21,502 bases of DNA from a virus, in IMG/VR virus record IMGVR_UViG_3300035070_004152, positions 1-21,502 of that record. One strand, written 5' to 3'. Shown in pieces: positions 2,213 to 20,737 of the stretch. Each line of letters starts with the position of its first letter. Position 1 is the stretch's first letter. The position numbers and the translations under genes were made by a program. Under the pieces are notes generated by a model. That model saw nothing but the letters and a program-made list of their open reading frames with translations, did not search any database and had not been told where the DNA came from.

Positions 2213-2236
2213 GATTTATTGTGTGTGTTATTTACA

Positions 2237-2251
2237 GTATAAGATATACTT
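2237..2251 (-). promoter_or_regulatory. Late-promoter-like motif, copy at the spike/fibre unit
   Basis: On the minus strand this reads AAGTATATCTTATAC. It lies in the 40-nt gap between the 62-residue gene and the 88-residue gene, 25 nt upstream of ATG 2212. With flanking bases it is identical over 21 positions (2231-2251) to the copy before the tape measure gene. Promoter function is inferred from recurrence and position. Confidence 0.6.
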
Positions 2252-2252
2252 A

Positions 2253-2441
2253 TTAGTTCGATTGTTTTAGTTTTGCGACAGCATCTATAATTGTCTGTCC
2301 GCCAATGTAGATTGCACTTATCGTAACCCAATCAGATGATGTTACATCACCAAATAAAGTTAGTAAGGTAGCAATTGCAAAAACCATTAGTTTTCTGCTT
2401 GAGTATCTTTCGATGAATCTATCTATTGTTCCTTTGCTCAT
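2253..2441 (-). CDS. Small membrane protein, holin-like candidate
   Basis: This 62-residue protein has a charged N-terminus (MSKGTIDRFIERYSSRK), a hydrophobic segment at about residues 18-31 (LMVFAIATLLTLFG), a short polar turn (DVTSSDW) and a second hydrophobic segment at about 39-55 (VTISAIYIGGQTIIDAV), ending K-L-K-Q-S-N. Two short membrane spans with charged ends are compatible with a small class II-type holin. They also fit an unrelated virion membrane-facing protein. It lies between connector and spike-base genes, and no endolysin is adjacent, so the holin label is tentative. Confidence 0.5.
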   Translation of the reverse strand: MSKGTIDRFIERYSSRKLMVFAIATLLTLFGDVTSSDWVTISAIYIGGQTIIDAVAKLKQSN

Positions 2442-2500
2442 TGTTTTGATTTTGTTTTGAGAAGTATTGTGATAACTTCTTTATGTTTTCTTTAGTACTC

Positions 2501-3091
2501 TTAGTAGAGTGGGATATTGATTCGGCCTTCTGAGTTGTCGCAGTCATCACAGTATTTATTTAGGTTTGTTCCGGGCATTGCTAATCCAGTATAGTAAGAT
2601 GTTCCTCTTCTTGGTGCCATACCATCTTTATTGGTATATGATTGATATTCTGGATAATCTTCTTGATAAGCAACTAAAAAGTCTCTTAGTCTTTCATTGT
2701 AAAACTGTGCAGTAGAATTTACTTGATTCATCAAGAATTGTACTTCTTCTAATGCTATAGATTCTCCAACTTCAGATGTTCCACTCATAAGTCCTTTATT
2801 AGTAGTCTTATATTTGATATGTGGTAATGCAAGATAGTAAGTATAGTATACTACCATATTAGCTACATAGTCATCTAGGAGTGTCTTGTATGCCGTAGGG
2901 ATAGGTGTCTGATTAGTTACGTAATCATTTACATATTCTTTCAAAGCATTGTATAACTTAGTTCCACATGTGGATTGTACGTACAGATCCTGACTTTGGA
3001 TTACGTATGGGTAAAGTTGATCTGGATCTACATTTTGGTCGATTCCAGTAAAGCTCTTGAGCTTGTCTTCTGTGATAAAGAGAGTTGTCAT
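2501..3091 (-). CDS. Head-tail connector-like protein (DUF6712-like)
   Basis: This 196-residue protein is encoded one base after the portal gene. The N-terminus (LFITEDKLKSFTGIDQNVDP...LYPYVIQSQDLYVQ) and the following helices, including GTKLYNALKEY and YVANMVVYYTYYLALP, match the pattern of the DUF6712 group as I recall it. Those proteins sit beside portal genes in Bacteroidetes phages and are compared with gp6-type adaptors. The C-terminus carries a CDDC motif (about residues 181-184) that could bind metal. Adjacency to the portal supports a role in the neck ring. The assignment is from remembered family pattern plus context. Confidence 0.65.
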   Translation of the reverse strand: MTTLFITEDKLKSFTGIDQNVDPDQLYPYVIQSQDLYVQSTCGTKLYNALKEYVNDYVTNQTPIPTAYKTLLDDYVANMVVYYTYYLALPHIKYKTTNKGLMSGTSEVGESIALEEVQFLMNQVNSTAQFYNERLRDFLVAYQEDYPEYQSYTNKDGMAPRRGTSYYTGLAMPGTNLNKYCDDCDNSEGRINIPLY

Positions 3092-3092
3092 A

Positions 3093-4226
3093 TTAGTCTT
3101 GTGTTTCGTTTGGTGTGATTATGTCTTGCGGAGCACCGTCAACATTTACTGTATATAAGATCTCTGCTGGTATAACTTCTAGTTTGACTGTTCTACCTGT
3201 TTGGTTGATAATCTTACTAAATGATTTTACTAATTTCTTTTGCATAGGTACAATAACAGTTCCCATAAAGTGGTTATATGCTACTTGTATTTCATCTGCA
3301 TTATTTGAGAAACCTGCAGCATCTTTTATACCTAACAAAAGTGGACTCGATATCCTGTGACTAGTCAATATATCTTGTGAAAGTCTAGCAGAAAGCGTGA
3401 TATAGTAGTCATCGTTTGCGTTCTCTATTGCTTGTAAATCTGGTTCTCTTCCTGGTTCTGAGAAGTTTACGAAGAATTTCCCCGCGTTATCTTCTCCCGC
3501 AAATGTGGACTCTATGTCTCGCCAAATCGCTGTTTGCTCGTCGGGAGTTGGTATACCATTTTTGAAAGTTAGCATCATAGAAGGAGCTAATCCCTGTTGT
3601 AAATTCGAGCGGTGGAATCGACTGACTCTAGCATCAGTATCTATCGAGTTTATAGCACCTACATAAGCAGGTAAAGGATAGTAAAATGCACCTACAGTAT
3701 AATCAAAACAATAGTAAACTTGATTAGCGTCTTCACCTTTATTATCTGTTGGTGAATATGCTTTGTATGCTACGGGTTTATATTTTCTATGTTGCTGCCA
3801 GTTTGATGAGTAGTAATAGTGTTCTACTTCTTCTTCATCATTCATTACACCACTTCTTACATTGTTGAAAGGAAGATGAAATACTTCTGCTATAGTACTT
3901 CCGTCTCTCGACCATACTACATTCAAACTATAACCTCCAAAGAGAACATAGTCCGTTGAAATCTTTTCAAAGACTTCGTCAATAGTTTCTCCTTTTGAAT
4001 TGATGACGTCATCACCAAAATGTTGAAAACCTTCACCAGTTACTGCATCTACTTTAGCTTCGATTGCTGTGTGGTGCATTGCTGAGTTGTTGAATAACTC
4101 TATTAGTAAATCTGGGTATAAGTTGTTAGAACCAAAATCTATCCAATCTTTACCTTTTTTCTCTTGTATCGCTGGTAATTGAATTGCTTCGAATGACCTT
4201 GAGTTGAACGCGTATCGTTGCTGCAT
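3093..4226 (-). CDS. Portal protein
   Basis: This 377-residue protein forms the dodecameric DNA gate at one capsid vertex in related phages. Portal-type features include an early segment with SNNLYPDLLIELFNNSAMHH (residues about 33-52) followed by an I-x-x-K-V-D-A-V-T-G-E-G-F element (crown/stem entry). There is also DYVLFGGYSLNVVW, a mid-protein beta wing with HLPFNNVR, and a C-terminal helical stretch with SHRISSPLLLGI and GFSNNADEIQVAYNHFMGTV, typical of PBSX/HK97-class portals. Length is slightly short for the class. It is followed by the connector gene and preceded by a virion protein gene after a 4-nt gap. Its place downstream of the capsid gene is atypical. Confidence 0.85.
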   Translation of the reverse strand: MQQRYAFNSRSFEAIQLPAIQEKKGKDWIDFGSNNLYPDLLIELFNNSAMHHTAIEAKVDAVTGEGFQHFGDDVINSKGETIDEVFEKISTDYVLFGGYSLNVVWSRDGSTIAEVFHLPFNNVRSGVMNDEEEVEHYYYSSNWQQHRKYKPVAYKAYSPTDNKGEDANQVYYCFDYTVGAFYYPLPAYVGAINSIDTDARVSRFHRSNLQQGLAPSMMLTFKNGIPTPDEQTAIWRDIESTFAGEDNAGKFFVNFSEPGREPDLQAIENANDDYYITLSARLSQDILTSHRISSPLLLGIKDAAGFSNNADEIQVAYNHFMGTVIVPMQKKLVKSFSKIINQTGRTVKLEVIPAEILYTVNVDGAPQDIITPNETQD

Positions 4227-4230
4227 ATTA

Positions 4231-4719
4231 TTATTTGTATATTACGTATGATTTTGCTGTGTTAGGTTCAGTCTTATATTTGACTGTGATTGCTTCATCA
4301 GAACCTCTTTGCATATCTACCGTCGTTGTTGATTTTATTTTAGTTTGACCATTCTGTAGTAGAGACCATTGACCTTCATCAAAGTTTTCTGATGTCCAAT
4401 CAATATCTAATTCACTACCCCATATTTCATAGTCATATAAACCAGTGTAAAGTCCAAGTTCTACAGTACTTCCTGCACCTAAATAAGGTTGAACATTGAA
4501 CTCTGAGTATCTTTCATTTGATAATTGTAATTCAATTGGTAATAACCAAGAGCTGGTGTCATTATCGATTGATCTATTAGTGTATCTACTTGTTAGTTGT
4601 AGTCTATAAGTAACATAACCATTTGGTGTAGCTGCGGTCACGCCGCTTAGATCACCATCTACTGCTACTCTAGTTCTCAAAGCTGTGCCTTCTGTATTGT
4701 CTCTAAAATATAATGTCAT
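4231..4719 (-). CDS. Beta-rich virion protein of unknown role
   Basis: An open frame extends upstream to a TTG at 4749, but the first ATG is at 4719. It lies 30 nt downstream of the late-promoter-like motif at 4749-4763, at a spacing like that of other copies. The TTG would fall inside or beside that motif, so I use 4719 (162 residues, beginning MTLYFRDNTEGTALRTRV). The protein has alternating short beta strands (YVTYRLQLTSRYTNR, LPIELQLSNERYSEF, GLYDYEIWGS), suggesting an Ig-like or jelly-roll fold. No enzymatic motif is seen. It heads the unit leading to portal and connector, so a head or neck decoration role is plausible but unproven. Confidence 0.6.
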   Translation of the reverse strand: MTLYFRDNTEGTALRTRVAVDGDLSGVTAATPNGYVTYRLQLTSRYTNRSIDNDTSSWLLPIELQLSNERYSEFNVQPYLGAGSTVELGLYTGLYDYEIWGSELDIDWTSENFDEGQWSLLQNGQTKIKSTTTVDMQRGSDEAITVKYKTEPNTAKSYVIYK

Positions 4720-4748
4720 ATAGTATTTATCTAGATTTATTTGTATCA

Positions 4749-4763
4749 ATATAAGATATACTT
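4749..4763 (-). promoter_or_regulatory. Late-promoter-like motif, copy at the portal unit
   Basis: The minus strand reads AAGTATATCTTATAT. It lies directly after the intrinsic terminator at 4786-4817 and before ATG 4719. A terminator followed by this motif is the expected arrangement if the motif restarts transcription for the virion protein, portal and connector genes. Confidence 0.6.
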
Positions 4764-4785
4764 CTGACTGTAGTTGTAATTACAC

Positions 4786-4817
4786 AAAAAAAGAGGTAAC
4801 CATTTCTGATTACCTCT
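4786..4817 (-). terminator. Rho-independent terminator after the tube-like gene
   Basis: On the minus strand an 11-bp stem (AGAGGTAATCA pairing with TGGTTACCTCT, one G-T pair) closes a GAAA tetraloop and runs directly into seven T residues. It lies 41 nt past the stop of the tube-like gene. It would end the scaffold-capsid-tube transcript. Confidence 0.9.
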
Positions 4818-4858
4818 CTTACATATATAGGCAGACCTAAGTCTGGAAGAGTAATAAC

Positions 4859-5377: not shown

Positions 5378-5411
5378 AATTCTTTGGTGTTTTTTTTAGA
5401 TTATTTTTATA

Positions 5412-6314
5412 TTATAATGTACCGTTCTTTGCGAATTTAGTAACATCCACGATTCCTAAACCGATCCTCCATGCGCCCATGACACGAACTTCGTCGTTAT
5501 CGGCAGAATAGAAAATATTTAGTGAATCGAAGTCATCTTCTAAACCAACTCCTACTACGATATCTTTCAAAGGACCTGCAACGAAAGAATCACCTGTAAC
5601 TGCTGGATAAGTAGCAGAAGCAGAGAAACCTGATGATTTGATTACTTTGAAATCAGTACCTGGCATTACTAATTCTGTGTTTGAGTTAGTATCCGCTGGG
5701 TTGAAGTGGAATAAGTTTTGTGAAATCAATGCTCTTCTCAACATGTTGTAGTAAGAAGGCGCCATGATAACACCTAAGTCATCTCTGTCTAATACAGAAG
5801 ATGGTACAGCGTCAATTAGGTCCATAACGTCTGCAACGATAGTTGAAGCGATAGATGCAGTAGTTTGACCTGAAGTGACAGCACCGTTTGCAACAGTTAC
5901 ATCAGTAAGGATTTCAGAACCTAAGTAGTTCTCATTCCAGTTACGGATTTTCTCTACGAATAAGTTTGCAGTAACCTCTTCAAATGGAATTTCTTCTGCG
6001 TGAGCTGAAGCAGATAATCTGCTAGCTAAATAATAATCGCGAAGATCAGTTGGGCATAATGCTTGTTTTGTTTGTTTTTCTTGCATGTCGATATCTACTT
6101 GTGAATAAGTAAGATTTCCTGCTGCGTTCCAACCACAAGCTCTATCAGCTACAGCGATATCTGCATCTAATAAATTGATAGTTGTCGTTCCGAATTTCAA
6201 TCCTGAACGGATCTGTGCGTATTCCATCACAGAAGTCTGTAAAACTGCCTTTGAAATCAATTCAAAAGATAGTTCATCTGACATAGTTTGTAAATTTGCT
6301 AAATTGTAGCTCAT
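5412..6314 (-). CDS. Major capsid protein (HK97-fold candidate)
   Basis: This 300-residue protein follows the scaffold gene after 22 nt. An N-terminal helical region (residues 1-35) is followed by a beta-rich E-loop-like stretch (FGTTTINLLDADI at 41-53). Then comes a long helical segment with EEVTANLFVEKIRNWNENYLG (112-132) and the P-domain-like sequence VLDRDDLGVIMAPSYYNMLR (174-193). A C-terminal A-domain-like part ends SADNDEVRVMGAWRIGLGIVD. The order scaffold-capsid-tube and the length suit a capsid subunit. No long delta domain is present; the separately encoded scaffold would supply that role. HK97 fold is inferred, not demonstrated. Confidence 0.8.
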   Translation of the reverse strand: MSYNLANLQTMSDELSFELISKAVLQTSVMEYAQIRSGLKFGTTTINLLDADIAVADRACGWNAAGNLTYSQVDIDMQEKQTKQALCPTDLRDYYLASRLSASAHAEEIPFEEVTANLFVEKIRNWNENYLGSEILTDVTVANGAVTSGQTTASIASTIVADVMDLIDAVPSSVLDRDDLGVIMAPSYYNMLRRALISQNLFHFNPADTNSNTELVMPGTDFKVIKSSGFSASATYPAVTGDSFVAGPLKDIVVGVGLEDDFDSLNIFYSADNDEVRVMGAWRIGLGIVDVTKFAKNGTL

Positions 6315-6336
6315 AATGTTCTAATGTTTATTTTGG

Positions 6337-6912: not shown

Positions 6913-6969
6913 GTACTAATTATTTATTTTTAGTTGTTATACTTTAGACACTGAATGTGCCTTGAACAT

Positions 6970-6985
6970 AATAAGATATACACTT
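6970..6985 (-). promoter_or_regulatory. Late-promoter-like motif, copy at the scaffold-capsid unit
   Basis: The minus strand reads AAGTGTATATCTTATT, with a two-base change (GT added next to the AAGT end) relative to the other copies; the GTATATCTTAT core is intact. It lies 58 nt upstream of the scaffold ATG at 6912, the longest leader among the six copies. Confidence 0.55.
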
Positions 6986-7097
6986 GTGCTTGGATGACAT
7001 AAGTTAGGTTTGAGAGCTCATCTGCCCACACAATTCACCTTTGAGACGTAAAGACATTACTTATATGCTAGTTTAGTCTTTTTGTTTCATTCAATTG

Positions 7098-7117
7098 AAA
7101 ATAATTTGAAAATAGTT
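7098..7117 (+). repeat. Repeat A, first copy (upstream AT-rich element)
   Basis: AAAATAATTTGAAAATAGTT recurs at 7519-7538 with one mismatch. Each copy lies upstream of a copy of the 28-bp early element. The TTTG within it could be a -33 element of a Bacteroidetes-type promoter, with TATATAAT 21 nt further on in this copy. Confidence 0.5.
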
Positions 7118-7176
7118 TAGCAAAAGTTGTATATAATATAGAATACGTACACACGTACACACACGGGAGGCTTATC

Positions 7177-7189
7177 TATAGTGACTATA
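7177..7189. promoter_or_regulatory. Perfect palindrome, operator candidate
   Basis: TATAGT-G-ACTATA has two 6-bp arms about one central base. It lies in the divergent control region upstream of the early element. Such odd-length palindromes can be dimeric regulator sites, but no regulator is identified. Confidence 0.3.
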
Positions 7190-7223
7190 AATAACAAAAT
7201 AAACCGCAATATATTGTCGTATG

Positions 7224-7251
7224 TCAAATAAAAGTGTTATATTAGTAGTAT
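7224..7251 (+). promoter_or_regulatory. Duplicated 28-bp early promoter-like element, first copy
   Basis: This element matches 7558-7585 at 27 of 28 positions, including all of GTGTTATATTAGTAGTAT. TATATTAG (7238-7245) resembles the Bacteroidetes -7 box TAnnTTTG with one mismatch. A TTG lies 21 nt upstream (7214-7216), matching the usual spacing. It precedes the first early gene by 37 nt. The repeat is seen directly; the promoter role is inferred. Confidence 0.6.
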
Positions 7252-7258
7252 ACAAATG

Positions 7259-7272: not shown

Positions 7273-7288
7273 ACTAAACTAAACAAAA

Positions 7289-7525
7289 ATGAAAAATCAA
7301 GAAATGAACATCGAAACCCTGGAAAACAAACTAAATGAAATGGAATCTCTTGCCCATGCTAAAATGGATGTAATGGAAGAAGCTGATGACTACTCAGACG
7401 AATACTATGAGTTAGACGGTCTGACGAATGACATCAACTACATTCACCACGACTACGAAGGTGCTGAATTGGTAGAAGCTATGGAGGGTATCATTGATCA
7501 ATTACAATACCTTTTGCAAAAATAA
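7289..7525 (+). CDS. Early acidic protein, 78 residues, unknown function
   Basis: This is the first gene of the rightward cluster. It starts at ATG 7289 after an A-rich leader (AACTAAACAAAA). The protein is strongly acidic and predicted to be helical: a helix at about residues 7-34, an acidic Tyr-rich loop (DDYSDEYYELDG) and a C-terminal helix (ELVEAMEGIIDQLQYLLQK). No domain is recognised. Small acidic proteins directly behind strong early promoters in phages often inhibit or redirect host proteins, some as DNA mimics. That is only an inference here. Confidence 0.7.
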   Translation: MKNQEMNIETLENKLNEMESLAHAKMDVMEEADDYSDEYYELDGLTNDINYIHHDYEGAELVEAMEGIIDQLQYLLQK

Positions 7526-7538
7526 TTTGAAAAAAGTT
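7519..7538 (+). repeat. Repeat A, second copy
   Basis: This copy matches 7098-7117 at 19 of 20 positions. It spans the last codons of the 78-residue gene and the following gap, 19 nt upstream of the second 28-bp element; in the first copy that gap is 106 nt. Confidence 0.5.
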
Positions 7539-7557
7539 GCTAAAATATTTTTTTATC

Positions 7558-7585
7558 TCAAAAAAAAGTGTTATATTAGTAGTAT
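7558..7585 (+). promoter_or_regulatory. Duplicated 28-bp early promoter-like element, second copy
   Basis: This near-identical copy of 7224-7251 is placed 31 nt before ATG 7617. It gives the second early gene its own promoter even though it lies downstream of the first. TATATTAG is at 7572-7579; no clear TTG is present at the -33 position of this copy. Confidence 0.6.
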
Positions 7586-7616
7586 CTAATAACAACAAAC
7601 AAATAAAACAAACAAA

Positions 7617-7871
7617 ATGAAACAGACAACAAACAAAATGGTAATCGCTTTAGACATCAATGAAATTATGCATAACCTTCAATGTATGGCCGACGAAGCT
7701 ATTGAATTAGGTGAGGTTATAGATGATGATTATATCTATGAGGCTTTATGTAAACTAACATTAGATGCTGGTTTATGGGAAGAGACTGATAATGATTGGT
7801 ACGAAGTTTATCAAGATTCAGTTGATTCTTGGAATGCGCATGGACACTTCTTTTATTTATTCCTATTGTAA
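7617..7871 (+). CDS. Early acidic protein, 84 residues, unknown function
   Basis: The gene starts at ATG 7617 after the A-rich leader AAACAAACAAA. The protein is acidic, with two helices (DINEIMHNLQCMADEAIEL, residues about 14-32, and DDDYIYEALCKLTLDAGLW) and an aromatic, acidic C-terminal half (DNDWYEVYQDSVDSWNAHG). It ends in a hydrophobic FFYLFLL. No catalytic motif or known fold is recognised. It lies 7 nt upstream of the next gene start, consistent with cotranscription. Confidence 0.65.
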   Translation: MKQTTNKMVIALDINEIMHNLQCMADEAIELGEVIDDDYIYEALCKLTLDAGLWEETDNDWYEVYQDSVDSWNAHGHFFYLFLL

Positions 7872-7878
7872 ACACATA

Positions 7879-8121
7879 ATGAGTCTAATCCACTACAAAC
7901 AAAAAGTTATTGATAGTATCTCGTACAACAATAATCCACAAAACTGGAGGTTGTATGAGCTACTCAATAATAAAGAAGTAAAACTAACACGTCTACTAAA
8001 AGATATGGTAAGAGAAGGTCTCATAACCATCCATTACGAGACTGAGGCTAATGGTAAAGTAAGAAGAATACTTACTAAAGTGAGAGATTGTTATGACGAC
8101 TTCTCACGTATCGAGTACTAA
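7879..8121 (+). CDS. Small winged-helix-like early protein, 80 residues
   Basis: An upstream extension of this frame overlaps the previous gene out of phase, so I place the start at the ATG at 7879, 7 nt after that gene ends. The 80-residue product (MSLIHYKQKVIDSISYNNNP...) has helices at about 5-15 and 20-30, a helix KLTRLLKDMVREGLI at 34-48 and a beta hairpin (TIHYETEANGKVRRILTK). The order helix-helix-helix-wing suggests a winged-helix DNA-binding or transcription-modulating protein. It is more basic than its neighbours. The fold is inferred by eye. Confidence 0.6.
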   Translation: MSLIHYKQKVIDSISYNNNPQNWRLYELLNNKEVKLTRLLKDMVREGLITIHYETEANGKVRRILTKVRDCYDDFSRIEY

Positions 8122-8171
8122 AGTGAAACAAATACATACTACTAGTGTATAACTATAAACAAAACAAGAAT

Positions 8172-8342
8172 ATGGAATCACATTTTGAACAATTAGAATT
8201 ATGGTGGGGAGAAGCGGCTGACGACTTCCCAGGTTCATTTGCGTCTTGGTTATTAGAACGCATTGAGTCAGAAGAATCAGAAGATATAGACGCAGACATT
8301 GAGTGTCTAGTTTATGAGCTACGAAAAAAGAGAAATATATAA
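8172..8342 (+). CDS. Early acidic protein, 56 residues, unknown function
   Basis: The frame opens further upstream at a GTG (8145), but the ATG at 8172 follows an A-rich leader and gives a normal start (MESHFEQLELWWGEAADDFP). The product is acidic, with DIDADIECLVYELRKKRNI at its end. It is separated by 3 nt from the next gene, so the two are probably cotranscribed. Function is not recognisable. Confidence 0.6.
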   Translation: MESHFEQLELWWGEAADDFPGSFASWLLERIESEESEDIDADIECLVYELRKKRNI

Positions 8343-8345
8343 GCT

Positions 8346-8648
8346 ATGGAAAACACACAACAACAACAGAACTATGACGCATTCATCGCTAGAGCGGGTT
8401 GGGTCAACGCACAACCTTCGGAAGAGATGTACAAGCTTTGCCATAATGTAAGTAATGATATGTTACTTATGATGTGGACTGAGTATTTAGCATTTACTGA
8501 AGGACTTGCAACAGAAGTCTACGAAATAGAATTATCAAAGTTCTTAGAAGAGATGGGAGCACTTGAATTAGTTAGTGGCTTTGTCGCTTATTTACAAGGA
8601 GGTATCGATGTTGCAAAAGCACAAGAAACTAAAGAAACTAAAGAATAA
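8346..8648 (+). CDS. Early protein, 100 residues, unknown function
   Basis: This is the last gene of the rightward cluster. It starts at ATG 8346 and ends 25 nt before the intrinsic terminator. The N-terminus is Gln-rich (MENTQQQQNYD). The rest is predicted helical, with hydrophobic, aromatic helices (MLLMMWTEYLAFTEGLATEV, residues about 38-57, and FLEEMGALELVSGFVAYLQ). It ends in a charged KETKETKE repeat. No known domain is recognised. Confidence 0.65.
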   Translation: MENTQQQQNYDAFIARAGWVNAQPSEEMYKLCHNVSNDMLLMMWTEYLAFTEGLATEVYEIELSKFLEEMGALELVSGFVAYLQGGIDVAKAQETKETKE

Positions 8649-9085: not shown

Positions 9086-10876
9086 TTAGTTTATGTCTTT
9101 TAGTACATTTATTATTTTGTCTAAGACTGTTTCATCAGTCTCAACGGGTTGTGCTTTATTTATGAAATCTCCAGCGATTGAAAATCCTTTGATCTTACCT
9201 GCTTTTATATCTTCCCAGGTTTCATCATTATTTACTTTGTAAACTCCAAACCAACTTCCAATTGGTAAGTCATTGAAACCGTAGAATCGTGACTTGTCAT
9301 GCACTCTAGACTCGACTAACCATTGTTCTAATAAGATATTATCAGTTTTGATTTGGCCATCGTGGTCGATGTCTGTGACGTTCTGGAAACCTGCTCTATT
9401 GAATCTTTCTTGTATTCTTCTAATAGTATCCTTTGAAAAGAACACATAGTAAGGTTCTCCGCTACCGTCTCTTCTGAGTATCATTTTATTAGGAGTCATC
9501 AGAGGCCCTGCTACTATTCTTTTATCTTCATCTTGTATAGCAAATGAGAATCTAAGTGATGCGTTATTTGAAACTGAACCTGCAGGACTTGGTGTATTAC
9601 TATTATTAGATTTACCTGCATCTCCTTGTGCTGGACCTTCTTCAATCATTAGTACTCTTCTACTTCCTTCTGGTTTGTAGAGAGCAACTTGAGACCACCA
9701 GTGGCGGCAATTTACGCCTCCTTTATATGCGAAAACATTATAGGAATCTCTTCCTCCAGGTCCCATATCAGGATTGATAGCACTTAGACGTCCTCTAAGA
9801 CCTCGCATATCTCCTTCTGCATAAACCTTATTGAGAGATAACATAGCTCTACAGAAACTACGTGAGTCACCGCCTCTAGGGCCTGTGTATCTGTATCTGA
9901 TCTGAGCAGGTTCATCTTTTCTAATTCCCATCTTACCAAGTATATCTAAACCTGTAATTGCTTTAGAAATATTCTCAATTGTATTGAATTCTTCTTGTGA
10001 AGGATCTATATAAGTAAAGTCTTCAGTTATTTGTTCTCCGTGTTCCTGAGCCCACGCTAATATGATCTCTTGTTCTTTTGTGTATTCTTCTTTACTGAAA
10101 TCTTTCTTCTTGATCTCATCACCATAGTCCACATAAGGTTCCAATTGGCTAACATCTGCATCTGATTCTTCACGAATACGATCTAATTTTGATTGTGCCC
10201 ATTCAATACCTGCTTGTCCGCCCCATGCGTCAACCATTAGACCACCACATCCTTCAGAATATGGCACATCTTTATATTGTAAATGTCTTGCAAATGAAGC
10301 CATACGAGCGATAGTTTCTTCGCTTATCATCTCACCTTTTGCAAGTTGATTTGCTCTTGCCCAACCTACTCTTGTTCCACAAGATTGTTCAGGATGAGAG
10401 TCTCTCCATTCTAATGCTCTTTTAGCAGCCGACTTTGCAGATTCTGGATAGTCATTGTATGATGCAAACTCTTCTTTGCTATTTTGAATAGGTACACAGT
10501 TTGGAACTTGACGACCATTCTTATCTTTCATGCCAATAGGTTCATAACCAGCCCAACATGCTTCATCTAAATCAAAGTAGTCTGTGTTCATTTCAGTAGG
10601 ACCGTGTTTCTCTTCCCAATATGTATGGCAAATAGCAGCGGCTTGATCAGCTTCGTAACCCTCTTCGCCTACTAATACACCAATACAGCGACTCATAAAT
10701 GGATTATGATCTTCGTCACCAATTGGTTTGACAAATTGTTCAGCGGCGAATGCCATAAAGTCTACTTCAATAGCAGGTTCCTCTACGAAACTTACTACTT
10801 GAACTCCCATTTCTTCGAGTTCTAAATTATCTAGATCTATTTCTAGTTCTACTATCTTTTTGATGTTATCTTCCAT
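9086..10876 (-). CDS. Multidomain prohead protease fusion (XkdF-type, S78-like) with Cys-rich and capsid-associated modules
   Basis: This 596-residue protein has at least five modules. (1) Residues 56-88: FMSRCIGVLVGEEGYEADQA...CHTYW, a short Cys/His motif seen in phage head proteins. (2) Residues 99-130: a C-W-x-G-Y-E-x-I-G-M-K...G-R-x-V-P-N-C-V-P motif. (3) Residues 139-237: a small domain with SAKRALEWR, CGTRVGWARANQLAKGE, YSEGCGGLMVDAWGG and GIEWAQSKL. (4) Residues 326-401: RYRYTGPRGGDSRSFCRAML...GGVNCRHWWSQVALY, a Cys/His module related in style to MuF-type minor head proteins. (5) Residues 443-572: an XkdF-type serine protease domain ending WEDIKAGKIKGFSIAGDF, with candidate catalytic His505 and Ser566. 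Only module 5 has a clear enzymatic role, cleavage of scaffold and capsid during maturation. The gene follows the tape measure gene by 14 nt. Confidence 0.8.
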   Translation of the reverse strand: MEDNIKKIVELEIDLDNLELEEMGVQVVSFVEEPAIEVDFMAFAAEQFVKPIGDEDHNPFMSRCIGVLVGEEGYEADQAAAICHTYWEEKHGPTEMNTDYFDLDEACWAGYEPIGMKDKNGRQVPNCVPIQNSKEEFASYNDYPESAKSAAKRALEWRDSHPEQSCGTRVGWARANQLAKGEMISEETIARMASFARHLQYKDVPYSEGCGGLMVDAWGGQAGIEWAQSKLDRIREESDADVSQLEPYVDYGDEIKKKDFSKEEYTKEQEIILAWAQEHGEQITEDFTYIDPSQEEFNTIENISKAITGLDILGKMGIRKDEPAQIRYRYTGPRGGDSRSFCRAMLSLNKVYAEGDMRGLRGRLSAINPDMGPGGRDSYNVFAYKGGVNCRHWWSQVALYKPEGSRRVLMIEEGPAQGDAGKSNNSNTPSPAGSVSNNASLRFSFAIQDEDKRIVAGPLMTPNKMILRRDGSGEPYYVFFSKDTIRRIQERFNRAGFQNVTDIDHDGQIKTDNILLEQWLVESRVHDKSRFYGFNDLPIGSWFGVYKVNNDETWEDIKAGKIKGFSIAGDFINKAQPVETDETVLDKIINVLKDIN

Positions 10877-10890: not shown

Positions 10891-12861
10891 TTACAATTTT
10901 GCTATGTTCTCAACTCTTGCATTAGCTTCTTGAGCATCAGTCATTTCAGTTGCAACTACATAGGCTTTTAGTATTGGTTGTGTTGAAGGTTGTCCTTGTG
11001 AGTTTGTTGTTGATAAGTCTCCAATAGCATCTGAATCTCCTACACTAGGTCCTTCTCCTAAACCTAAACTTCCAGTATTTCCAGTAAATGTTGGTATACT
11101 TCCAGCAGAAGGTAATCCTCCACCTGCTCCTCCACCACCACCTCCACCTCCAGGTGTTGGGGTTGCTACAATAGCTCTAATGTTTGCAACACCCGTAGCG
11201 ATTGCAACTCCTGCAGCCAGGGCCGCTCTAATAGGAGAATCTGGTGTTAGAGTCATTTGAGATGTATATGCTTTTTGAGCTCCTAAATATGTGGAAATCG
11301 TGGCTGCCGCAACTGCCGCGGCTTTTCCAGCAGCACTTTCTTGTCCGACTAAACTAGCAATTGCACTAAATGCAGAAGTTGCTAATTCTAAATCGTTATC
11401 AGTAACATCTTGAGCAAGTTTCTTATTATAGCTTGCTTCTTCTTTTGCGAGTTTACCACGTTTCTTAGCGTAACCATCTCTAATCTTTTGTTTTTCTAAT
11501 TCAGTAGCTCCAAGTAATTCAAGTTCTGCCATTGCCTGTTCTTCTTGGCGTAGTAGTTCTTCTTGTGCTCTTTGAAATTCATTCTCTATCGACTCGAAAT
11601 ATGCCTGGTCTAAGATTGCTTTCAGTCTCTCTTGTTTTGCAAGTAGGTCCGCGGCATCTTTCTCGTCTTGCATCGCTTTAGCTTCTGCTTCTTTATCTCT
11701 ATAAGATTGTTCTAATGCTATCTTCTGATCTTCGTATAATTTGTCTGCTTCTAATAACTGTGCTTTAGTTGCTTTATTATCTACTAAGACTTGTCTCTGT
11801 GTTTCTTGTTGTATTTGAAGTACTGCCATCGCTTTGGCTTCTTCATCTGCAATACCATTTACATTTAGATCTCTAAGAGCATCTGCAACAGTTTGTTCCA
11901 TTGCCATCCTTTCTTCGATCTGTGCTTTGTATTCTTCAGCAGCTTGAGTTCTAATTTCTCTTGCTACTTTATTAGCATCATACTCTACATTGGCTAACGT
12001 AGTTTGTTGATCAATCAGACTTGCTTGTAATTCTGCAATCTCTAATTGTTTCTCTCTACGTTCTTCATAATTGTTTGTAAGTATTAGTTGTGCTTCGGCG
12101 CTCTGTAAGGCTAGTTTAGTTTCTGCTACTTGATTCTCTGCTAATTTCTTAGTAGCTGCTGTAACTCCATCTAAGGCAGCAAGACGTTCATCTAGAGAGA
12201 GTGTTGTATCTTCTAAGACTTTCTTATTCTCTTCAATAGTTGCATTCAGTTTAGCATTCTCAATAATAGTCTTATTTCTAAGTTGTGCTAGTTTCTTCTC
12301 TGCTTCAAATTGACTATCAACTGCTTCAGTTGCTTCTACCACAGCATCCTTCATAGTATTGAAAGCTCCTGCAATATCACCTGAAAGAAGTAGCTTCAAT
12401 GCGGTACCGACATTTGAAATAATAGCACCAAGAGCAGCCATTGTCTTTTTCAAGATTTTGGCTCCTGCTTCAAGATTTGAGAAGTAGTTTACTAATGCGA
12501 GAACTAAGGGTACAATCAGGCCAATCCCAGTAGCTGCGATTGCAGCACTAGTGGTAGTACCAAAGATTTTAGCGGCTTTACTAGAAAGACCAAAGCCTTT
12601 TGCCATACCTGTAAGTCCATTTTGTAGTGTCTTGTAGCCTTTCTTTAGATCTCCAAATCCTGCTTTTAGTCCACTGAACTTTTCTTTGACTTCATCGATT
12701 TTCTTACTAAAGAAACCTTGCTCCTTAGCAGCATCTTTGGTCTCTTTCTTTACATCATCAATTTCAGAAGCGGCTTTCTTAGCACCTTTTGCTAAGTCCT
12801 TCAACTGATCTTGAGTGTACTCAATACCGTCTATTTTTACTTTGATTTCTATATCAGACAT
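10891..12861 (-). CDS. Tail tape measure protein candidate
   Basis: This 656-residue protein has a charged helical N-terminus (1-65), a Gly/Ala-rich and hydrophobic region with a membrane-spanning-like segment (AAIAATGIGLIVPLVLALVNYF, 106-127), and a long Ala/Glu/Lys/Gln-rich coiled coil (about 180-480). A further Ala-rich region (about 485-560) and a poly-Gly linker (571-578) follow. It ends with a conserved-looking C-terminus, PILKAYVVATEMTDAQEANA...ENIAKL. This is typical of tape measure proteins of Bacteroidetes phages, which set tail length and pass to the membrane during DNA entry. At about 0.15 nm per residue the tail would be near 100 nm if the whole protein is the ruler. It has its own late-promoter-like motif 20 nt upstream. 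Confidence 0.75.
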   Translation of the reverse strand: MSDIEIKVKIDGIEYTQDQLKDLAKGAKKAASEIDDVKKETKDAAKEQGFFSKKIDEVKEKFSGLKAGFGDLKKGYKTLQNGLTGMAKGFGLSSKAAKIFGTTTSAAIAATGIGLIVPLVLALVNYFSNLEAGAKILKKTMAALGAIISNVGTALKLLLSGDIAGAFNTMKDAVVEATEAVDSQFEAEKKLAQLRNKTIIENAKLNATIEENKKVLEDTTLSLDERLAALDGVTAATKKLAENQVAETKLALQSAEAQLILTNNYEERREKQLEIAELQASLIDQQTTLANVEYDANKVAREIRTQAAEEYKAQIEERMAMEQTVADALRDLNVNGIADEEAKAMAVLQIQQETQRQVLVDNKATKAQLLEADKLYEDQKIALEQSYRDKEAEAKAMQDEKDAADLLAKQERLKAILDQAYFESIENEFQRAQEELLRQEEQAMAELELLGATELEKQKIRDGYAKKRGKLAKEEASYNKKLAQDVTDNDLELATSAFSAIASLVGQESAAGKAAAVAAATISTYLGAQKAYTSQMTLTPDSPIRAALAAGVAIATGVANIRAIVATPTPGGGGGGGGAGGGLPSAGSIPTFTGNTGSLGLGEGPSVGDSDAIGDLSTTNSQGQPSTQPILKAYVVATEMTDAQEANARVENIAKL

Positions 12862-12880
12862 ATGGTAATATTGTTTTACA

Positions 12881-12896
12881 GTATAAGATATACTTT
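12881..12896 (-). promoter_or_regulatory. Late-promoter-like motif, copy at the tape measure unit
   Basis: The minus strand reads AAAGTATATCTTATAC in the 49-nt gap between the 883-residue gene and the tape measure gene, 20 nt upstream of ATG 12861. Including flanks it is identical over 21 bases to the copy at 2231-2251. Confidence 0.6.
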
Positions 12897-12910
12897 TAGG
12901 TTGTTATGAA

Positions 12911-15562
12911 TTATGCACAGTCTTCGCATGTTGCATATGTAGTACCATCAATTAGTACTCCTAAGTCTCCACCTTGTGGTCTTGCTTGTTCTTGTCCTAC
13001 AATTACACATTCAAGTGTTATCTGTCCTGTTAGTTCATCTTCAACATTTCCTCTCATTATAGTTCCTTGCAGGATTGCATTAGGACTAGTTAGCCATGCT
13101 TGGCCTTGGCCATTACAGAATTGTACGTTATATTCATAAAGTCCTGGTGCTGGTGGTGCTGGATTACCTGAAGTATTTGAAAGTAATTTTATTAGTTCTA
13201 CCTTTACTGTAGCAACCTCACCTAGAGGTGCATCGTAGACCTTCTGGATCCTCCAATAATCATCTTTGATAAATATAACATCGTCAAAGGTAAGTGTCCT
13301 TAGATCTTCTGAGGTTAGATTGAAGTATGCTGTCATCTTTCTAGCATTTGGACTATATTGATTTGCAATATATTGTTTCCAATACCTATCATAAACTGAT
13401 TCTCCTAATTGACCGCTATCTTCTACGTTTTCAGTTACAGGATCTATATAAGAAAAGTAACTAAATTGTGTTTTCCAGTTTAGATTGAAAGTAGTATTAG
13501 TTGTTGGAATCTCTGTTAGGTATGAACAACGTGGATATCGATAATCTGTACCACTTAGTAATGGAAATTGACTAGAATTCTTTACAGTATTTCCATCTGT
13601 ATAGTACCATCTTACTTGTTGGTTTTGACCTGAAGGAGTAGTTCCAACATTAGTCGTTGTAGGTTGTAAACCATTCCAGAATAAGAGTCTTTGAACTGGA
13701 GTAATAGGTATATGTTGTACGTGTCCATGATCACTGAGTTCATCTCCATTCTCATAGAATCTTGGTATAATAAACTGAGTGTCTATGTCCTTTAGTCCTT
13801 CTATTTGACTTACAGGTGTAGGAGCAAATTCTGTTTCTATTTCTCTAGTATCTGAAAGTAACTCATTACCACTTACAAATAGTCTACGTCCATAGACAGC
13901 ACCAAAAGTATCTTGTTGGTATTTGTTAGTAACATCTACATCCTCTTGATCTGTGAAAGTAATATCAGACTTTTGATCGTAGAATAAGGGTTGCATTCTA
14001 ATATCTTTATTGTGATCTAATTTGTAAGTCCAATCGAATTCATCTCCACTTCCTATATAATCTTGCCAAGGTTTGATTGTAAATATATTAGCATTCTCTA
14101 TTGTTGGTACCATTACCATTCTAAATTTAGTTAGAATAGATCTAAAGAAATCGATTTGTTTTAGGTCAGTCTTCAACATATCGTTTACAGTAATTTGAGA
14201 TGGTGTAAGTGTTGCATAGAATTGATTATCGAGTCCAAAAAGATCTGAGTCTCCATAGAACGAGTTTAGTATTACTGTTATTTCTTGACCTGCGAAAAAG
14301 TTACCTGTATAAGTTACATCACCTGGAAGAAAATCAAAGAAGTTTGTTTGGCCTTCGACACCCAGTTGAGTATCACTGGCAATTACAGAACCATCTCTAT
14401 AAATACCTAATTCTACATAAGGATCATCACTCTGACTGGTACTCGATTGTCTTCCTGTTAGTTCTACACCAAATGTATAAACTCCATCAACTGGTATAGT
14501 ATAAGTTCCTGTAACGGAACTATATGCATTCGCATTATTTTGATTGACAGTAGGAAAAACAATAGGTGTAAAGTTAGGTATATCATATGCAACTCCTTTA
14601 GTTGCATTGAATAGACCATCTCCTGATGGAGTAAATGGAAATCCTGTTGCAATACCATCTACGTATAAGTCTTTGAACCATTCCTCGTTGAACTCAGAGT
14701 CATCTGTGTAACTATAATCAGTACTCTCAAATATTTTATCAACTAGATATTTTACTTGCACGATAGGTGTAAACTGTGTAAGGAATAGTGGGTGTGCTAC
14801 TTTAGTAAATGCATTACCATGTGTTTCTGGAAAACCAACTCCAGCACTTGTATCTACTGCAGTCTCTGATGGTTCATCATTACCTGGAACTGCTAATAAG
14901 ACTCCATTGTCATCATAGTTTCCACCACGACTTGCTAACACATAACGTAAGAATTCTGGATTAGTTCTTGGTCCTCCTTGTTGTTGAGTCCAAAAAGCAC
15001 TTCCAATACTTGGTACATTACCAGTATTTCCACTTTGAGTAGATGCAAACATGTAATCTTGGTACCAAACTTCTTGGTTGAGAGAGTATGTCTCAGTAGC
15101 ATTCCACGGGTCAGTCCATGACTCTTCTAGATATTGTAGTGTAAGAACATGTGCTAAATCAATAGCATCAATAGAGCTCATGTATAGATCTCCTACTTGA
15201 CTTGAAAAGGTTTTAGTCTCTCCTAAGAATACTACTTCAAAATCTATTCTATCTTCTGTATCGTTTTGGTAAGCACCAATTAGTCTTAGTTGACCTGTCG
15301 TGTATCTAATACCATCTACATAAATATCTGCAGTTATCTTCTGAGTAACATCAAAGTCTAAGACTCCACTAGTATACCAATATCTAAAGTACTTACTATT
15401 GTTATTAGTTGCAGGTATTCTAAACTGTCTACTAAATGTAGAGTTTACTTGTGTAGGATCTGTGATCTCTTCTGCACTGAGTGTAATCTTGATTGGTTGC
15501 TCAGGATATAAATCGAGTTCATATCTGGTTCCATTCTCGTATGCGTATAATTGTACATTCAT
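12911..15562 (-). CDS. Large tail / baseplate-like structural protein with a possible carbohydrate-binding insert
   Basis: This 883-residue protein begins with a beta-rich domain carrying EEITDPTQVNSTFSRQFRIP (31-50), a pattern common in large structural proteins of Bacteroidetes phages, followed by SKYFRYWYTSGVLDF. Residues about 149-192 (WTDPWNATETYSLNQEVWYQ ... GNTGNVPSIGSAFWTQ) look like a carbohydrate-binding module of the CBM5/12 style, with its W-x-x-x-x-x-Y and final A-F-W-T pattern. The middle and C-terminal parts are beta-rich, with LTSEDLRTLTFDDVIFIKDD and DYWRIQKVYDAPLGEVATVK. It lies directly upstream of the tape measure unit and 3 nt after the 486-residue gene. A distal-tail or baseplate hub role with host-surface contact is inferred. 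Confidence 0.6.
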   Translation of the reverse strand: MNVQLYAYENGTRYELDLYPEQPIKITLSAEEITDPTQVNSTFSRQFRIPATNNNSKYFRYWYTSGVLDFDVTQKITADIYVDGIRYTTGQLRLIGAYQNDTEDRIDFEVVFLGETKTFSSQVGDLYMSSIDAIDLAHVLTLQYLEESWTDPWNATETYSLNQEVWYQDYMFASTQSGNTGNVPSIGSAFWTQQQGGPRTNPEFLRYVLASRGGNYDDNGVLLAVPGNDEPSETAVDTSAGVGFPETHGNAFTKVAHPLFLTQFTPIVQVKYLVDKIFESTDYSYTDDSEFNEEWFKDLYVDGIATGFPFTPSGDGLFNATKGVAYDIPNFTPIVFPTVNQNNANAYSSVTGTYTIPVDGVYTFGVELTGRQSSTSQSDDPYVELGIYRDGSVIASDTQLGVEGQTNFFDFLPGDVTYTGNFFAGQEITVILNSFYGDSDLFGLDNQFYATLTPSQITVNDMLKTDLKQIDFFRSILTKFRMVMVPTIENANIFTIKPWQDYIGSGDEFDWTYKLDHNKDIRMQPLFYDQKSDITFTDQEDVDVTNKYQQDTFGAVYGRRLFVSGNELLSDTREIETEFAPTPVSQIEGLKDIDTQFIIPRFYENGDELSDHGHVQHIPITPVQRLLFWNGLQPTTTNVGTTPSGQNQQVRWYYTDGNTVKNSSQFPLLSGTDYRYPRCSYLTEIPTTNTTFNLNWKTQFSYFSYIDPVTENVEDSGQLGESVYDRYWKQYIANQYSPNARKMTAYFNLTSEDLRTLTFDDVIFIKDDYWRIQKVYDAPLGEVATVKVELIKLLSNTSGNPAPPAPGLYEYNVQFCNGQGQAWLTSPNAILQGTIMRGNVEDELTGQITLECVIVGQEQARPQGGDLGVLIDGTTYATCEDCA

Positions 15563-17026: not shown

Positions 17027-17027
17027 A

Positions 17028-18427: not shown

Positions 18428-19121
18428 TCTTTTGCTTTAGGTTTTGTAGTTTTTCTTTCTGTACTTGGGCTTTCTTCCATGTCAGATAGTTGAGTGCTTC
18501 TCTCCAAGGTCTTTCGACTACTTGGTGTATCTTTAGGAAATCCTCATTAGCAAGAGCCATGATAGCCTCCCACCACATTAGTTGTATATTAGGTTCGTAG
18601 TCCTCATCTTTATCTGGTTGAGGTCCTTTCTTGTTTTGTTCTAATTCAAAGAACTCATCATATTCTTTATAGCACTGTTCTCTCCATTTAGTGTATTCAA
18701 CTATGGCTCCCCATACTGTTTCAATCGAAACTTCTTTGATGTCTTCAGTGTTACAATTGTATAAGATCTTTGAGATATTGATTACGTTGCTTGGGACTCC
18801 CTTTGAAACGAAAGTATCTAAGTCTACGAATTGACTAAAGGTCATATCTTCAAAATCTATTAGGGTCCATTCTAAGACACTCAAATTTACTGGTTGATTG
18901 ATCAATTGAAACCTTTGTAAACAAACACCTGTGATGAACGCAAGTACCTCCTCGTCTAGTTGGTTGATAGAACTAAGAGGACATTCCATAATCGTAGCAA
19001 CAAATGGCTTCAGATTGTTGAGGTCTTCTATATTCCAGACAATTGCCTTCTCAAAGCATTCCAGTGTGATATGCTTTGGTACACTGTATGTTTTGTCTAA
19101 GATTGTAAATTCTAGTTTCAT
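18402..19121 (-). CDS. Tail assembly chaperone-like protein
   Basis: This 239-residue protein follows the large terminase. It begins with a beta strand pair (MKLEFTILDKTYSVPKHITL), then is mainly helical. The C-terminal part reads WWEAIMALANEDFLKIHQVV, NYLTWKKAQVQKEKLQNL (about 184-230). The W-x-x-x-x-x-x-L-A-x-x-D-x-x-K-x-x-x-V plus Lys-rich tail resembles tail assembly chaperones of siphoviruses and myoviruses. Its place at the head of the tail unit fits. Against this, no tandem frameshift product is obvious. The ATG lies only 5 nt downstream of the late-promoter-like motif, so a leaderless or very short-leader transcript is implied if that motif is the promoter. Confidence 0.45.
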   Translation of the reverse strand: MKLEFTILDKTYSVPKHITLECFEKAIVWNIEDLNNLKPFVATIMECPLSSINQLDEEVLAFITGVCLQRFQLINQPVNLSVLEWTLIDFEDMTFSQFVDLDTFVSKGVPSNVINISKILYNCNTEDIKEVSIETVWGAIVEYTKWREQCYKEYDEFFELEQNKKGPQPDKDEDYEPNIQLMWWEAIMALANEDFLKIHQVVERPWREALNYLTWKKAQVQKEKLQNLKQKNDLQRRTK

Positions 19122-19126
19122 CCGTA

Positions 19127-19139
19127 ATAAGATATACTT
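19127..19139 (-). promoter_or_regulatory. Late-promoter-like motif, copy at the tail unit
   Basis: The minus strand reads AAGTATATCTTAT in the gap between the large terminase and the tail-assembly-like gene. Only 5 nt separate it from ATG 19121, far closer than the 20-58 nt seen for the other five copies. Confidence 0.55.
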
Positions 19140-19152
19140 GTAAGTTGTTATG

Positions 19153-19194
19153 AATTATCTAAGACCATGAGCCGTTCGCTCTTCTTAGATAATT
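19153..19194 (-). promoter_or_regulatory. Long hairpin covering the 3' end of the large terminase gene
   Basis: A perfect 12-bp inverted repeat (AATTATCTAAGA / TCTTAGATAATT) encloses an inner 4-bp GAGC/GCTC stem. It covers the last eleven codons and stop of the terminase gene and ends 13 nt before the next late-promoter-like motif. There is no T-run after it on the minus strand, so it is not a classical intrinsic terminator. An mRNA 3'-end stabiliser, processing site or protein-binding site are options. Confidence 0.6.
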
Positions 19195-20397
19195 GTAGGT
19201 TCCTAATGTTTTGTTTTGTTTTCTATTATGGTTCGCTATTGCTAAAGACATTACACAATCATCATGAAAACTCGCAGGCGCGTTGTAACGAATTGATCTA
19301 GTCTTAGGTGAGTAATCATACTCATATATACCTAACTCAAATTGGAGCGGCGCAAAGAGTTCTGCATTAGGTATTCGAATGGCCACATTGTTTAGATCTA
19401 CTGCAAGACCTTCTATCATATCATTCTTTGATTTACTTGAAGTAACAAAGGGGTGTGTATCAGACCACTGCTTCTTTAGCATTTCGAATACAACATCTCC
19501 AATTGAATTCGTTTCCACCATTACTGTTGCATTCCACTTCTTGATTTTGACTAACATCTCTTGTATCATCTGAGACCAGTCTTGTAGGTTCTGTCTGTAT
19601 ATGTCTACTATGTTACCTTCACCATCGATAAATGTTGCTACCGAGAAATCGTTCGCGCGACCTAAATCTATTCCGCAATATACTTTACCTTGTGGTAGTG
19701 GGTACTGTGAGAACTGGTTAGGTTTGGTATCTGCGAATACTGTCTGTCCACTTTCTGTAAATGAACCTTCATACTCTGCTTGGAATATATGAGATGGTAA
19801 ACTTCTACGAGCTTCTTCGAGTTCTCTTATATCTAGATGAGGATTCTCCGTATAGTGCATTCTACAACTCGCATAATCTGGTTGTTCGGGATCTATTCCT
19901 TGGTCATATAGTTTTTTGAAGAAGTTGTTACCACGAGGAGTTGATATAAATAAAACTTTTTTACCACGAACTAACATGATAGGTTTTAGTACAGATCCCC
20001 AAGCATCTTCTGCATGGTACGCAGCTTCGTCTATTACCATATAGTCTGCAGTATACCCTCTAAGATTATCTACTCTCTCAGTTGATTTGAACATTATCTT
20101 GGATCCGTTCTTGAATGATATAGTAAAGTCTGATTTGTTATATTGTTTGACTATACCTGATTCTGCTATCGCATCATGTAGATCTTCCATTACCTTTCTT
20201 GCTTGAGAGTAGGTTGGACTTGCGAACATTATGAGACATCCATGATTATTGATTGCCCAATACAGAAGCGCTTGCATAGACATAAAGGTTTTCCCAGTTT
20301 GCCTTGGTGCAACTACTGTAATGTACTTCGCAGGACCTTCAAGTAATCCGACTACTCTTGCTTGACCGCTATGTAGTTCTGGACTATTTACTATCAT
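19159..20397 (-). CDS. terL: Large terminase subunit (DNA packaging ATPase-nuclease)
   Basis: This 412-residue motor protein pumps DNA into the prohead and cuts it. ATPase motifs visible are Walker A APRQTGKT (30-37), Walker B YMVIDEA (119-125, with D123-E124) and the coupling motif ISTPRG (151-156). The RNase H-like nuclease part shows D244 in GIDLGRANDF (242-251), E295 in MVETNSIGD, and D379/D380 in FHDDCVMSLA, the expected metal-binding set. Length is near the lower end for the family but complete. The start overlaps the small-subunit gene by 14 nt, indicating coupled expression. The final codons are folded into a hairpin. Confidence 0.95.
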   Translation of the reverse strand: MIVNSPELHSGQARVVGLLEGPAKYITVVAPRQTGKTFMSMQALLYWAINNHGCLIMFASPTYSQARKVMEDLHDAIAESGIVKQYNKSDFTISFKNGSKIMFKSTERVDNLRGYTADYMVIDEAAYHAEDAWGSVLKPIMLVRGKKVLFISTPRGNNFFKKLYDQGIDPEQPDYASCRMHYTENPHLDIRELEEARRSLPSHIFQAEYEGSFTESGQTVFADTKPNQFSQYPLPQGKVYCGIDLGRANDFSVATFIDGEGNIVDIYRQNLQDWSQMIQEMLVKIKKWNATVMVETNSIGDVVFEMLKKQWSDTHPFVTSSKSKNDMIEGLAVDLNNVAIRIPNAELFAPLQFELGIYEYDYSPKTRSIRYNAPASFHDDCVMSLAIANHNRKQNKTLGTYNYLRRANGSWS

Positions 20398-20695
20398 CTT
20401 CTTTTGGTGGAGTATTGAAGTTGAACTTCAGTGACTTGAATAAGTCTTCTCCATCGGCCGCTGTTAGCTCTTGTCTTGATAATTCTGGAAGGAACCTATT
20501 AGATAATTTGAGTAAGAGATCTATTGCCTTTGCAGGATCGTCTTGCGCTGTTTGTTGTAACCATCTCTCAAGATCAGGCAACTTGTTTTCTAAGACCATT
20601 TGGAATGCTTCTCTAATCTCTTCTGTTATTTTGTTCTTACTTCCAACAGGTCTACCTGCTCTGTTGATTCTATCGTCGTTCTTTTCGAATGGCAT
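20384..20695 (-). CDS. terS: Small terminase subunit candidate
   Basis: This 103-residue protein directly precedes and overlaps the large subunit gene. It carries AGRPVGSKNKITEEIREAF (13-31), an AT-hook-like G-R-P-x-G-S-K-N-K motif followed by a helix, often found at the N-terminus of small terminase subunits of Bacteroidetes phages. Further helices (QMVLENKLPDLERWLQQTAQ, DPAKAIDLLLKLSNRFLP) could form the oligomerisation core. Its C-terminus (FNFNTPPKEDDSK) is acidic and extended, as expected of a segment that contacts the large subunit. It would recognise packaging sites on phage DNA. A late-promoter-like motif lies 29 nt upstream. Confidence 0.75.
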   Translation of the reverse strand: MPFEKNDDRINRAGRPVGSKNKITEEIREAFQMVLENKLPDLERWLQQTAQDDPAKAIDLLLKLSNRFLPELSRQELTAADGEDLFKSLKFNFNTPPKEDDSK

Positions 20696-20724
20696 ATTGT
20701 TATAGTTATTTTATAGTTTATTAG

Positions 20725-20737
20725 TATAAGATATACT
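20725..20737 (-). promoter_or_regulatory. Late-promoter-like motif, copy at the terminase unit
   Basis: The minus strand reads AGTATATCTTATA between the 59-residue gene and terS, 29 nt upstream of ATG 20695. It would initiate the terS-terL transcript. Confidence 0.6.

Follow-up and report, generated by a model that had tools for sequence, protein, structure and literature searches.

Six copies of a conserved bipartite motif precede late genes of an uncultured Bacteroidetes phage and are candidate promoters of a divergent phage sigma factor

The stretch of viral DNA analysed here, referred to as the window, is a complete IMG/VR record (IMGVR_UViG_3300035070_004152) of 21,502 bases and is a fragment of an uncultured tailed Bacteroidetes phage. 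Its minus strand holds the terminase, portal, prohead protease, tape measure and probable capsid genes, and a short motif, AGTATATCTTAT, recurs in six of the gaps on that strand; this motif, and a sigma-like protein encoded by related phages that may read it, are our subject. The small-terminase-like gene (20384..20695; weak PHROG and DUF5681-type matches, to it or to its orthologues) precedes that of the terminase large subunit (19159..20397; PHROG 2, E 4e-53; Pfam Terminase_6N, 1e-19). A tape-measure-like protein (10891..12861; PHROG 9483, E 6e-9), a prohead protease with an S78/XkdF-like domain (9086..10876; Pfam PF14550, E 1.5e-14), a probable major capsid protein whose role is inferred from its position (5412..6314; PHROG 11320, of unknown function) and the portal protein (3093..4226; PHROG 11226, E 4e-39) follow. 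Relatives of the portal among sequenced phages come nearly all from Bacteroidetes phages (Nonlabens, Bacteroides, Phocaeicola, Parabacteroides), and the nearest cultured one is Nonlabens phage P12024S, at 26 % identity by tblastn. This late strand is broken by a block of small plus-strand genes at 7289-8648.

Exact copies of AGTATATCTTAT occur five times on the minus strand (2239-2250, 4751-4762, 12883-12894, 19127-19138 and 20726-20737) and a sixth, with one mismatch (TGTATATCTTAT), lies at 6971-6982; the exact sequence does not occur on the plus strand of the window. Each copy sits in a gap upstream of a minus-strand gene, where the initial annotation had placed all six, and two of them share the 21 identical bases reported there, AAGTATATCTTATACTGTAAA, at 2231-2251 and 12875-12895. 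The gene downstream of the copy at 4751 truly begins with the ATG at 4719 and not with the TTG at 4749, which leaves that copy outside the gene.

Together with the upstream element and predicted start point described below, the copies delimit six putative late promoters, all on the minus strand. Promoter 1 (20722..20751) has its box at 20726-20737, a C at 20751 that is followed by T rather than A, and a predicted +1 at 20722, before the ATG of the small-terminase-like gene (20695), the first gene of late operon 1. Promoter 2 (19123..19152; CA at 19152-19151, box at 19127-19138) has a predicted +1 at 19123, 2 nucleotides (nt) before the ATG at 19121 of a gene for 239 amino acids (aa). Promoter 3 (12879..12908; CA at 12908-12907, box at 12883-12894, predicted +1 at 12879) lies before the tape-measure-like gene (ATG 12861), which opens late operon 3, and promoter 4 (6967..6996; CA at 6996-6995, the mismatched box at 6971-6982, predicted +1 at 6967) before a 191 aa gene (ATG 6912) that lies upstream of the capsid gene. 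Promoter 5 (4747..4776; CA at 4776-4775, box at 4751-4762, predicted +1 at 4747) precedes a gene whose product begins MTLYF (ATG 4719) and the portal gene; promoter 6 (2235..2264; CA at 2264-2263, box at 2239-2250, predicted +1 at 2235) precedes an 88 aa tail-fibre-like gene (ATG 2212). A minus-strand hairpin of 14 pairs followed by a T run (4789..4820), resembling an intrinsic terminator, ends the capsid operon immediately upstream of promoter 5, as expected of an operon boundary. Terminator-like sites are no more frequent in the whole window than in shuffled sequence, and only the placement of this one was counted.

Counted loosely, the motif is only modestly in excess: with two mismatches allowed, AGTATATCTTAT occurs 11 times in the window against 5.9 ± 2.0 expected by chance. 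A matrix trained on related contigs alone, with the window left out, ranks the six sites 1 to 6 over both strands, with scores of 14.4-31.1; no other site exceeds 8.6, and 30 dinucleotide shuffles reach 10.9 at most. The signal resides in the core, exact or nearly so, taken together with its context, and the initial observation is confirmed. That the motif marks every late operon start was slightly too strong a statement. Six starts carry a copy, but four late-strand gaps do not (364-631, 2442-2500, 5378-5411 and 6315-6336; these may be internal gaps), nor does the small-terminase start of one relative, L184.

Relatives were collected by terminase, capsid and sigma queries. A DNA-level search of phage records found no close relatives, the capsid query found no match in phage records, the terminase query gave nothing usable among genome contigs, and a tape-measure query added no contig to those already found. 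In 19 related contigs there are 40 sites, all at the same six orthologous gene starts as in the window: the small terminase, the 239 aa gene, the tape measure, the gene before the capsid, the MTLYF gene before the portal, and a tail-fibre-like gene whose product begins MGLQN. The box is constant while its flanks vary from operon to operon. In 179 kb of related contigs, a few of them near-identical to each other, the late strand holds 36 exact copies of AGTATATCTTA and the other strand none; 18 related records hold 31 copies and none of the reversed pattern. The motif is therefore present in related phages, and the wrong-strand copies that would have spoken against a promoter were absent.

Alignment of the 40 sites, from six unrelated operon starts, reveals two blocks where the initial annotation had described one: its box stands, as AAGTATATCTTA, and the overlooked part is a tCA twelve bases upstream, giving CA-N12-AAGTATATCTTA. 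Of the 40 sites, 30 have CA at -13/-12 relative to the box and 34 have the C. Downstream of the TTA come four bases, the last usually T, and then a purine in 40/40 sites (box position 16). This invariant purine, five bases after TTA, is likely to be +1, in which case the box ends at -5, like the host -7 box, and CA lies at -29/-28. The distance to ATG ranges from 4 to 59 nt. At the shortest TTA-to-ATG distance, 4 nt (L006, L007), the A of the ATG falls exactly on the invariant purine, as it does in three sites altogether; leaderless late mRNAs are therefore predicted, and the copy at 19127 in the window would give a leader of 2 nt. This is a distinctive prediction because leaderless mRNAs are uncommon in flavobacterial hosts, making up 5.5 % in F. 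psychrophilum (PMC9723704).

Relatives encode a protein of about 190 aa in the block of genes immediately preceding their terminase genes (for example L104:12360-12878, from its first ATG; L006:2-559; L112:9950-10525), and sigma-like proteins of this kind are found in nine contigs (L006, L104, L109, L110, L112, L113, L111/L115, L184 and L188). The NCBIfam model TIGR02937 (sigma70-ECF, for extracytoplasmic function) matches the protein over its full length, with a best E of 3e-8 and matches to five of six members; two further members match at 1.3e-5 and 2.6e-4. A search of PDB sequences gave chance matches only, and it was TIGR02937 and the fold search that brought the sigma similarity to light. 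A structure model (mean predicted local distance difference test score, pLDDT, 78.8) has as its best PDB match the ECF factor SigL, whose similarity lies in the C-terminal domain of the model (Z 10.1, 1.8 Å over 74 residues). Almost all of the 40 best rows of the fold search are sigma factors, with sigma region-4 chains dominating, and among the BFVD matches (E 1e-5 to 5e-4) are proteins named as phage sigma-70. Measured against the ECF layout of region 2 plus region 4 in about 160-200 aa, size and region 4 fit well, and region 2 is indicated by the full-length TIGR02937 match and a weak fold match. The protein is thus probably a divergent sigma70/ECF-like sigma factor, its region 2 less firm than its region 4.

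All nine sigma-bearing contigs also carry the bipartite motif, on the late strand only; conversely, each of the nine motif-bearing contigs known to include this region has the sigma-like gene. A scan of the whole collection for the bipartite pattern returned 40 loci, many of them single matches in unrelated contigs and probably chance; it added two informative contigs of the family, L158 (the same as L184/L185) and L180 (the same as L188). Both lay outside the training set of the motif, yet carry motif and sigma-like gene together. The pattern has no match in 349 kb of the wider clade of about 35 kb phages and none in P12024S, and de novo motif finding by k-mers and expectation-maximization in that wider clade returned only AT-rich or A-rich patterns, scarcely above shuffles. 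Weak sigma70-ECF matches occur in 24 of the more distant records; a few of these matches lie in long open reading frames (ORFs), and those few are probably chance. As a separate observation, one 38 kb contig (L187, or G063) has a single strong bipartite match just before an ATG at 13408, which may be chance or mark a distant user of the same promoter; it encodes a sigma70-ECF gene above the curated cut-off (E 3e-19).

We consider it highly probable, from the sequence evidence, that a divergent ECF-like sigma factor encoded by the phage uses the six copies as its late promoters, much as in phages 7-11 or phiEco32. Conserved gene starts, strand exclusivity, bipartite form, invariant purine, terminator and sigma-like gene together give most support to the original proposal, in which the late promoter is specific to the phage and its reader is a phage factor whose gene lies beyond the window. 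In L104 the sigma-like gene lies directly upstream of a small gene (12967-13308) whose counterpart in the window, by sequence comparison, is the gene cut off at its right end (21365..21502, minus strand, 3' end only); the sigma gene is therefore expected just beyond the window.

Several findings count against this interpretation. The sigma gene is seen in relatives and not in the window; its TIGR02937 scores fall below the curated cut-off (33.4 vs 42.9 bits); Pfam Sigma70_r2 does not match the protein of the relatives; and the N-terminal, region-2 half of the model matches weakly (sigma domain 2, 3ugp_A, Z 4.8). Sites at the small terminase mostly lack the CA element (CA in 1/7). Directly before the sigma-like gene, L104 encodes a 203 aa protein (11696-12304) with a weak Mor/late-activator-like C-terminal helix-turn-helix (HTH), a second possible transcription factor.

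This Mor-like HTH protein beside the sigma gene is one reason to ask whether the motif is instead bound by a late activator or repressor and is no part of a promoter core; another is that in some copies the box looks like a palindrome when read with the bases after it (AGTATA-TCT-TATACT). Conservation of this dyad is lacking, however: the 2/14 pair is complementary in just 15/40 sites, with G2 invariant and position 14 not, and we dropped the dyad-operator reading on that count. The fixed spacing to a start-like purine, and boxes as near as 3-4 nt to the ATG, also make an operator very improbable.

A conserved, repeated, strand-specific element ahead of late genes is also what T7-like phages have, and a single-subunit, T7-like phage RNA polymerase could read it. 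The split into two blocks, with a variable 12-nt spacer between them, is more in keeping with a sigma holoenzyme than one contiguous block of about 20 bp would be, and no unassigned ORF of polymerase size was seen in the relatives read. RNA_pol PF00940 has no match in 19 records, a weak point, the control genomes being silent and the contigs partial. We regard such an enzyme as very unlikely; of the two readers that had been suggested, a phage factor now has a sigma-like candidate, and a separate phage RNA polymerase is less favoured than a sigma.

Equally unlikely is a reading of the copies as ordinary sigma-A promoters of the host (-33 TTTG, -7 TAnnTTTG) that are similar by chance. The hosts are Bacteroidetes, and the box, like the host -7 box, has its end at -5 and TT at -7/-6. 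But the Flavobacterium johnsoniae -7 box has T-12, A-11, T-8, T-7, T-6 and G-5 (PMC6847099), of which T-12, A-11, T-8 and G-5 are unmatched here, and the copies have no TTTG at -33; strict TTTG-N-TAnnTTTG has two matches in the window, which is chance level, and neither is at a copy. The motif had been called unlike the host promoter, and this holds for the missing TTTG and for a box that is not TAnnTTTG, but not for the position of the box and part of its sequence. A signal for translation or RNA processing, or a target for insertion by neighbouring homing endonucleases, is extremely unlikely, since, for all that some copies lie just before an ATG and GIY-YIG genes adjoin several, the distance to ATG varies, internal genes of the same operons lack the motif and most copies have no adjoining endonuclease.

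On the sigma-factor interpretation, host polymerase with sigma-A would read the early genes and the replication block, including the sigma gene, which would lie in that replication-side block, shortly past the end of the window and immediately before the terminase genes. The phage sigma would then bind the host core RNA polymerase and recruit it to the six promoters, which would make these late in timing. Its region 4 would recognise tCA, at -30 to -28, as a short -30 element, and its region 2 would recognise AAGTATATCTTA, at -16 to -5, as a long -10 element, with transcription starting at the purine 5 nt downstream of the box. One late operon would issue from each copy: terminase; head-tail genes; tape measure and protease; capsid; portal; tail fibre. 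Where the ATG stands right behind the box, the mRNA would be leaderless.

The plus-strand block has a repeated promoter-like element of its own, a 44-nt direct repeat on that strand at 7208-7251 and 7542-7585 (86 % identical, ...AAAAGTGTTATATTAGTAGTAT), ahead of small ORFs at 7289 and 7617. The first copy contains TTG-N21-TATATTAG, like a host -33/-7 promoter, and both copies may be early promoters. Opposite-strand blocks of small genes occupy late-operon junctions that differ from one relative to another, typically just upstream of a late operon (window 7289-8648; L006:2582-3818; L110:7870-11217; L105:12281-13929). Free-standing GIY-YIG-like endonuclease genes also lie at late-operon junctions and adjoin promoter copies in several relatives, as if promoter gaps were favoured landing sites (window 20919-21368; L104:2162-2680; L105:9569-10030; L110:5253-5735; L112:1430-1882 and 10978-11379). 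The protease ORF at 9086-10876 (596 aa) is an unusual fusion: before its S78 domain come a stretch that matches a portal profile (PHROG 33693) in the C-terminal part of that profile, and a region also found in halovirus and Vibrio phage proteins.

Phage T4 transcribes its late genes with host polymerase and the phage sigma-family protein gp55 at a long -10 box; gp55 lacks a region 4 and depends on the sliding clamp and gp33. The motif had been judged unlike the T4 late promoter, and rightly: here a box AAGTATATCTTA is accompanied by an upstream CA, whereas T4 has TATAAATA and no upstream element. Closer is phage 7-11, whose divergent sigma SaPh711_gp47 uses the host core polymerase at eight bipartite late-operon promoters, GTAAtg-(16)-aCTA (PMC8948821). 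Like 7-11, the present family combines a phage-encoded divergent sigma-like protein, in nine related contigs, with a repeated bipartite motif upstream of late operons on the late strand; unlike it, the phages, host phylum and promoter sequence (tCA-N12-AAGTATATCTTA) are others, and leaderless starts are predicted. The sigma gp36 of phiEco32 lacks region-4 homology and serves middle/late promoters with one element (PMC8948821), whereas the present family has a region-4-like domain and a -30 element. Compared with Flavobacterium and Bacteroides sigma-A promoters, the position of the box and its TT are alike, and the absence of TTTG at -33 and AAGTATATCTTA in place of TAnnTTTG set it apart (PMC6847099, PMC9723704). 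Phage sigmas with their own late promoters are thus already known (phiEco32, 7-11, T4 gp55); new are the sigma family and the promoter in Bacteroidetes phages, and the open-access papers searched yielded no late promoter or late transcription factor of a Bacteroidetes siphophage.

A parallel exists in cultured phage P12024S (NC_018271, L027). Its gp33 is sigma-like, exceeding the cut-off of Pfam Sigma70_r2, for which it is the sole match over 49 records, and matching TIGR02937 at 5e-7; its gene has the same genome position as the sigma-like gene of the relatives, upstream of the terminase genes. The sequence CGTTAMTA occurs nine times in this genome; six copies lie exactly 4 nt before an annotated start and the other three before no gene. 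The box-bearing starts are at 179, 3031, 5412, 21280, 23961, 25201 and 26802, one of these seven having CGTTAATT 3 nt before it in place of CGTTAMTA, and AAAACAAA-like sequence lies upstream of the boxes. They are apparently an undescribed promoter family in a cultured phage; we found no report of them in the open-access papers searched. The two systems share the position of the sigma gene and a repeated box before late genes, 4 nt from the ATG, and differ in the sequences of box and sigma, hhalign giving no alignment of the two sigmas (E 0.25). Such differences are expected if sigma and promoter diverge together, as in phiEco32 versus 7-11 (PMC8948821), although two cases are no proof.

With a named sigma candidate, a promoter with a predicted +1, and a cultured phage, P12024S, that has its own pair, the question is directly testable. 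For gene expression in Bacteroidetes, in which E. coli promoters do not work, a sigma/promoter pair that is compact and orthogonal would also be a useful tool. We suggest, tentatively, that Bacteroidetes siphophages as a group may possess their own fast-diverging ECF-like late sigmas, each lineage with a cognate promoter (CA-N12-AAGTATATCTTA here, CGTTAMTA in P12024S) that often abuts the start codon, so that their structural mRNAs would be leaderless, unlike most mRNAs of their hosts.

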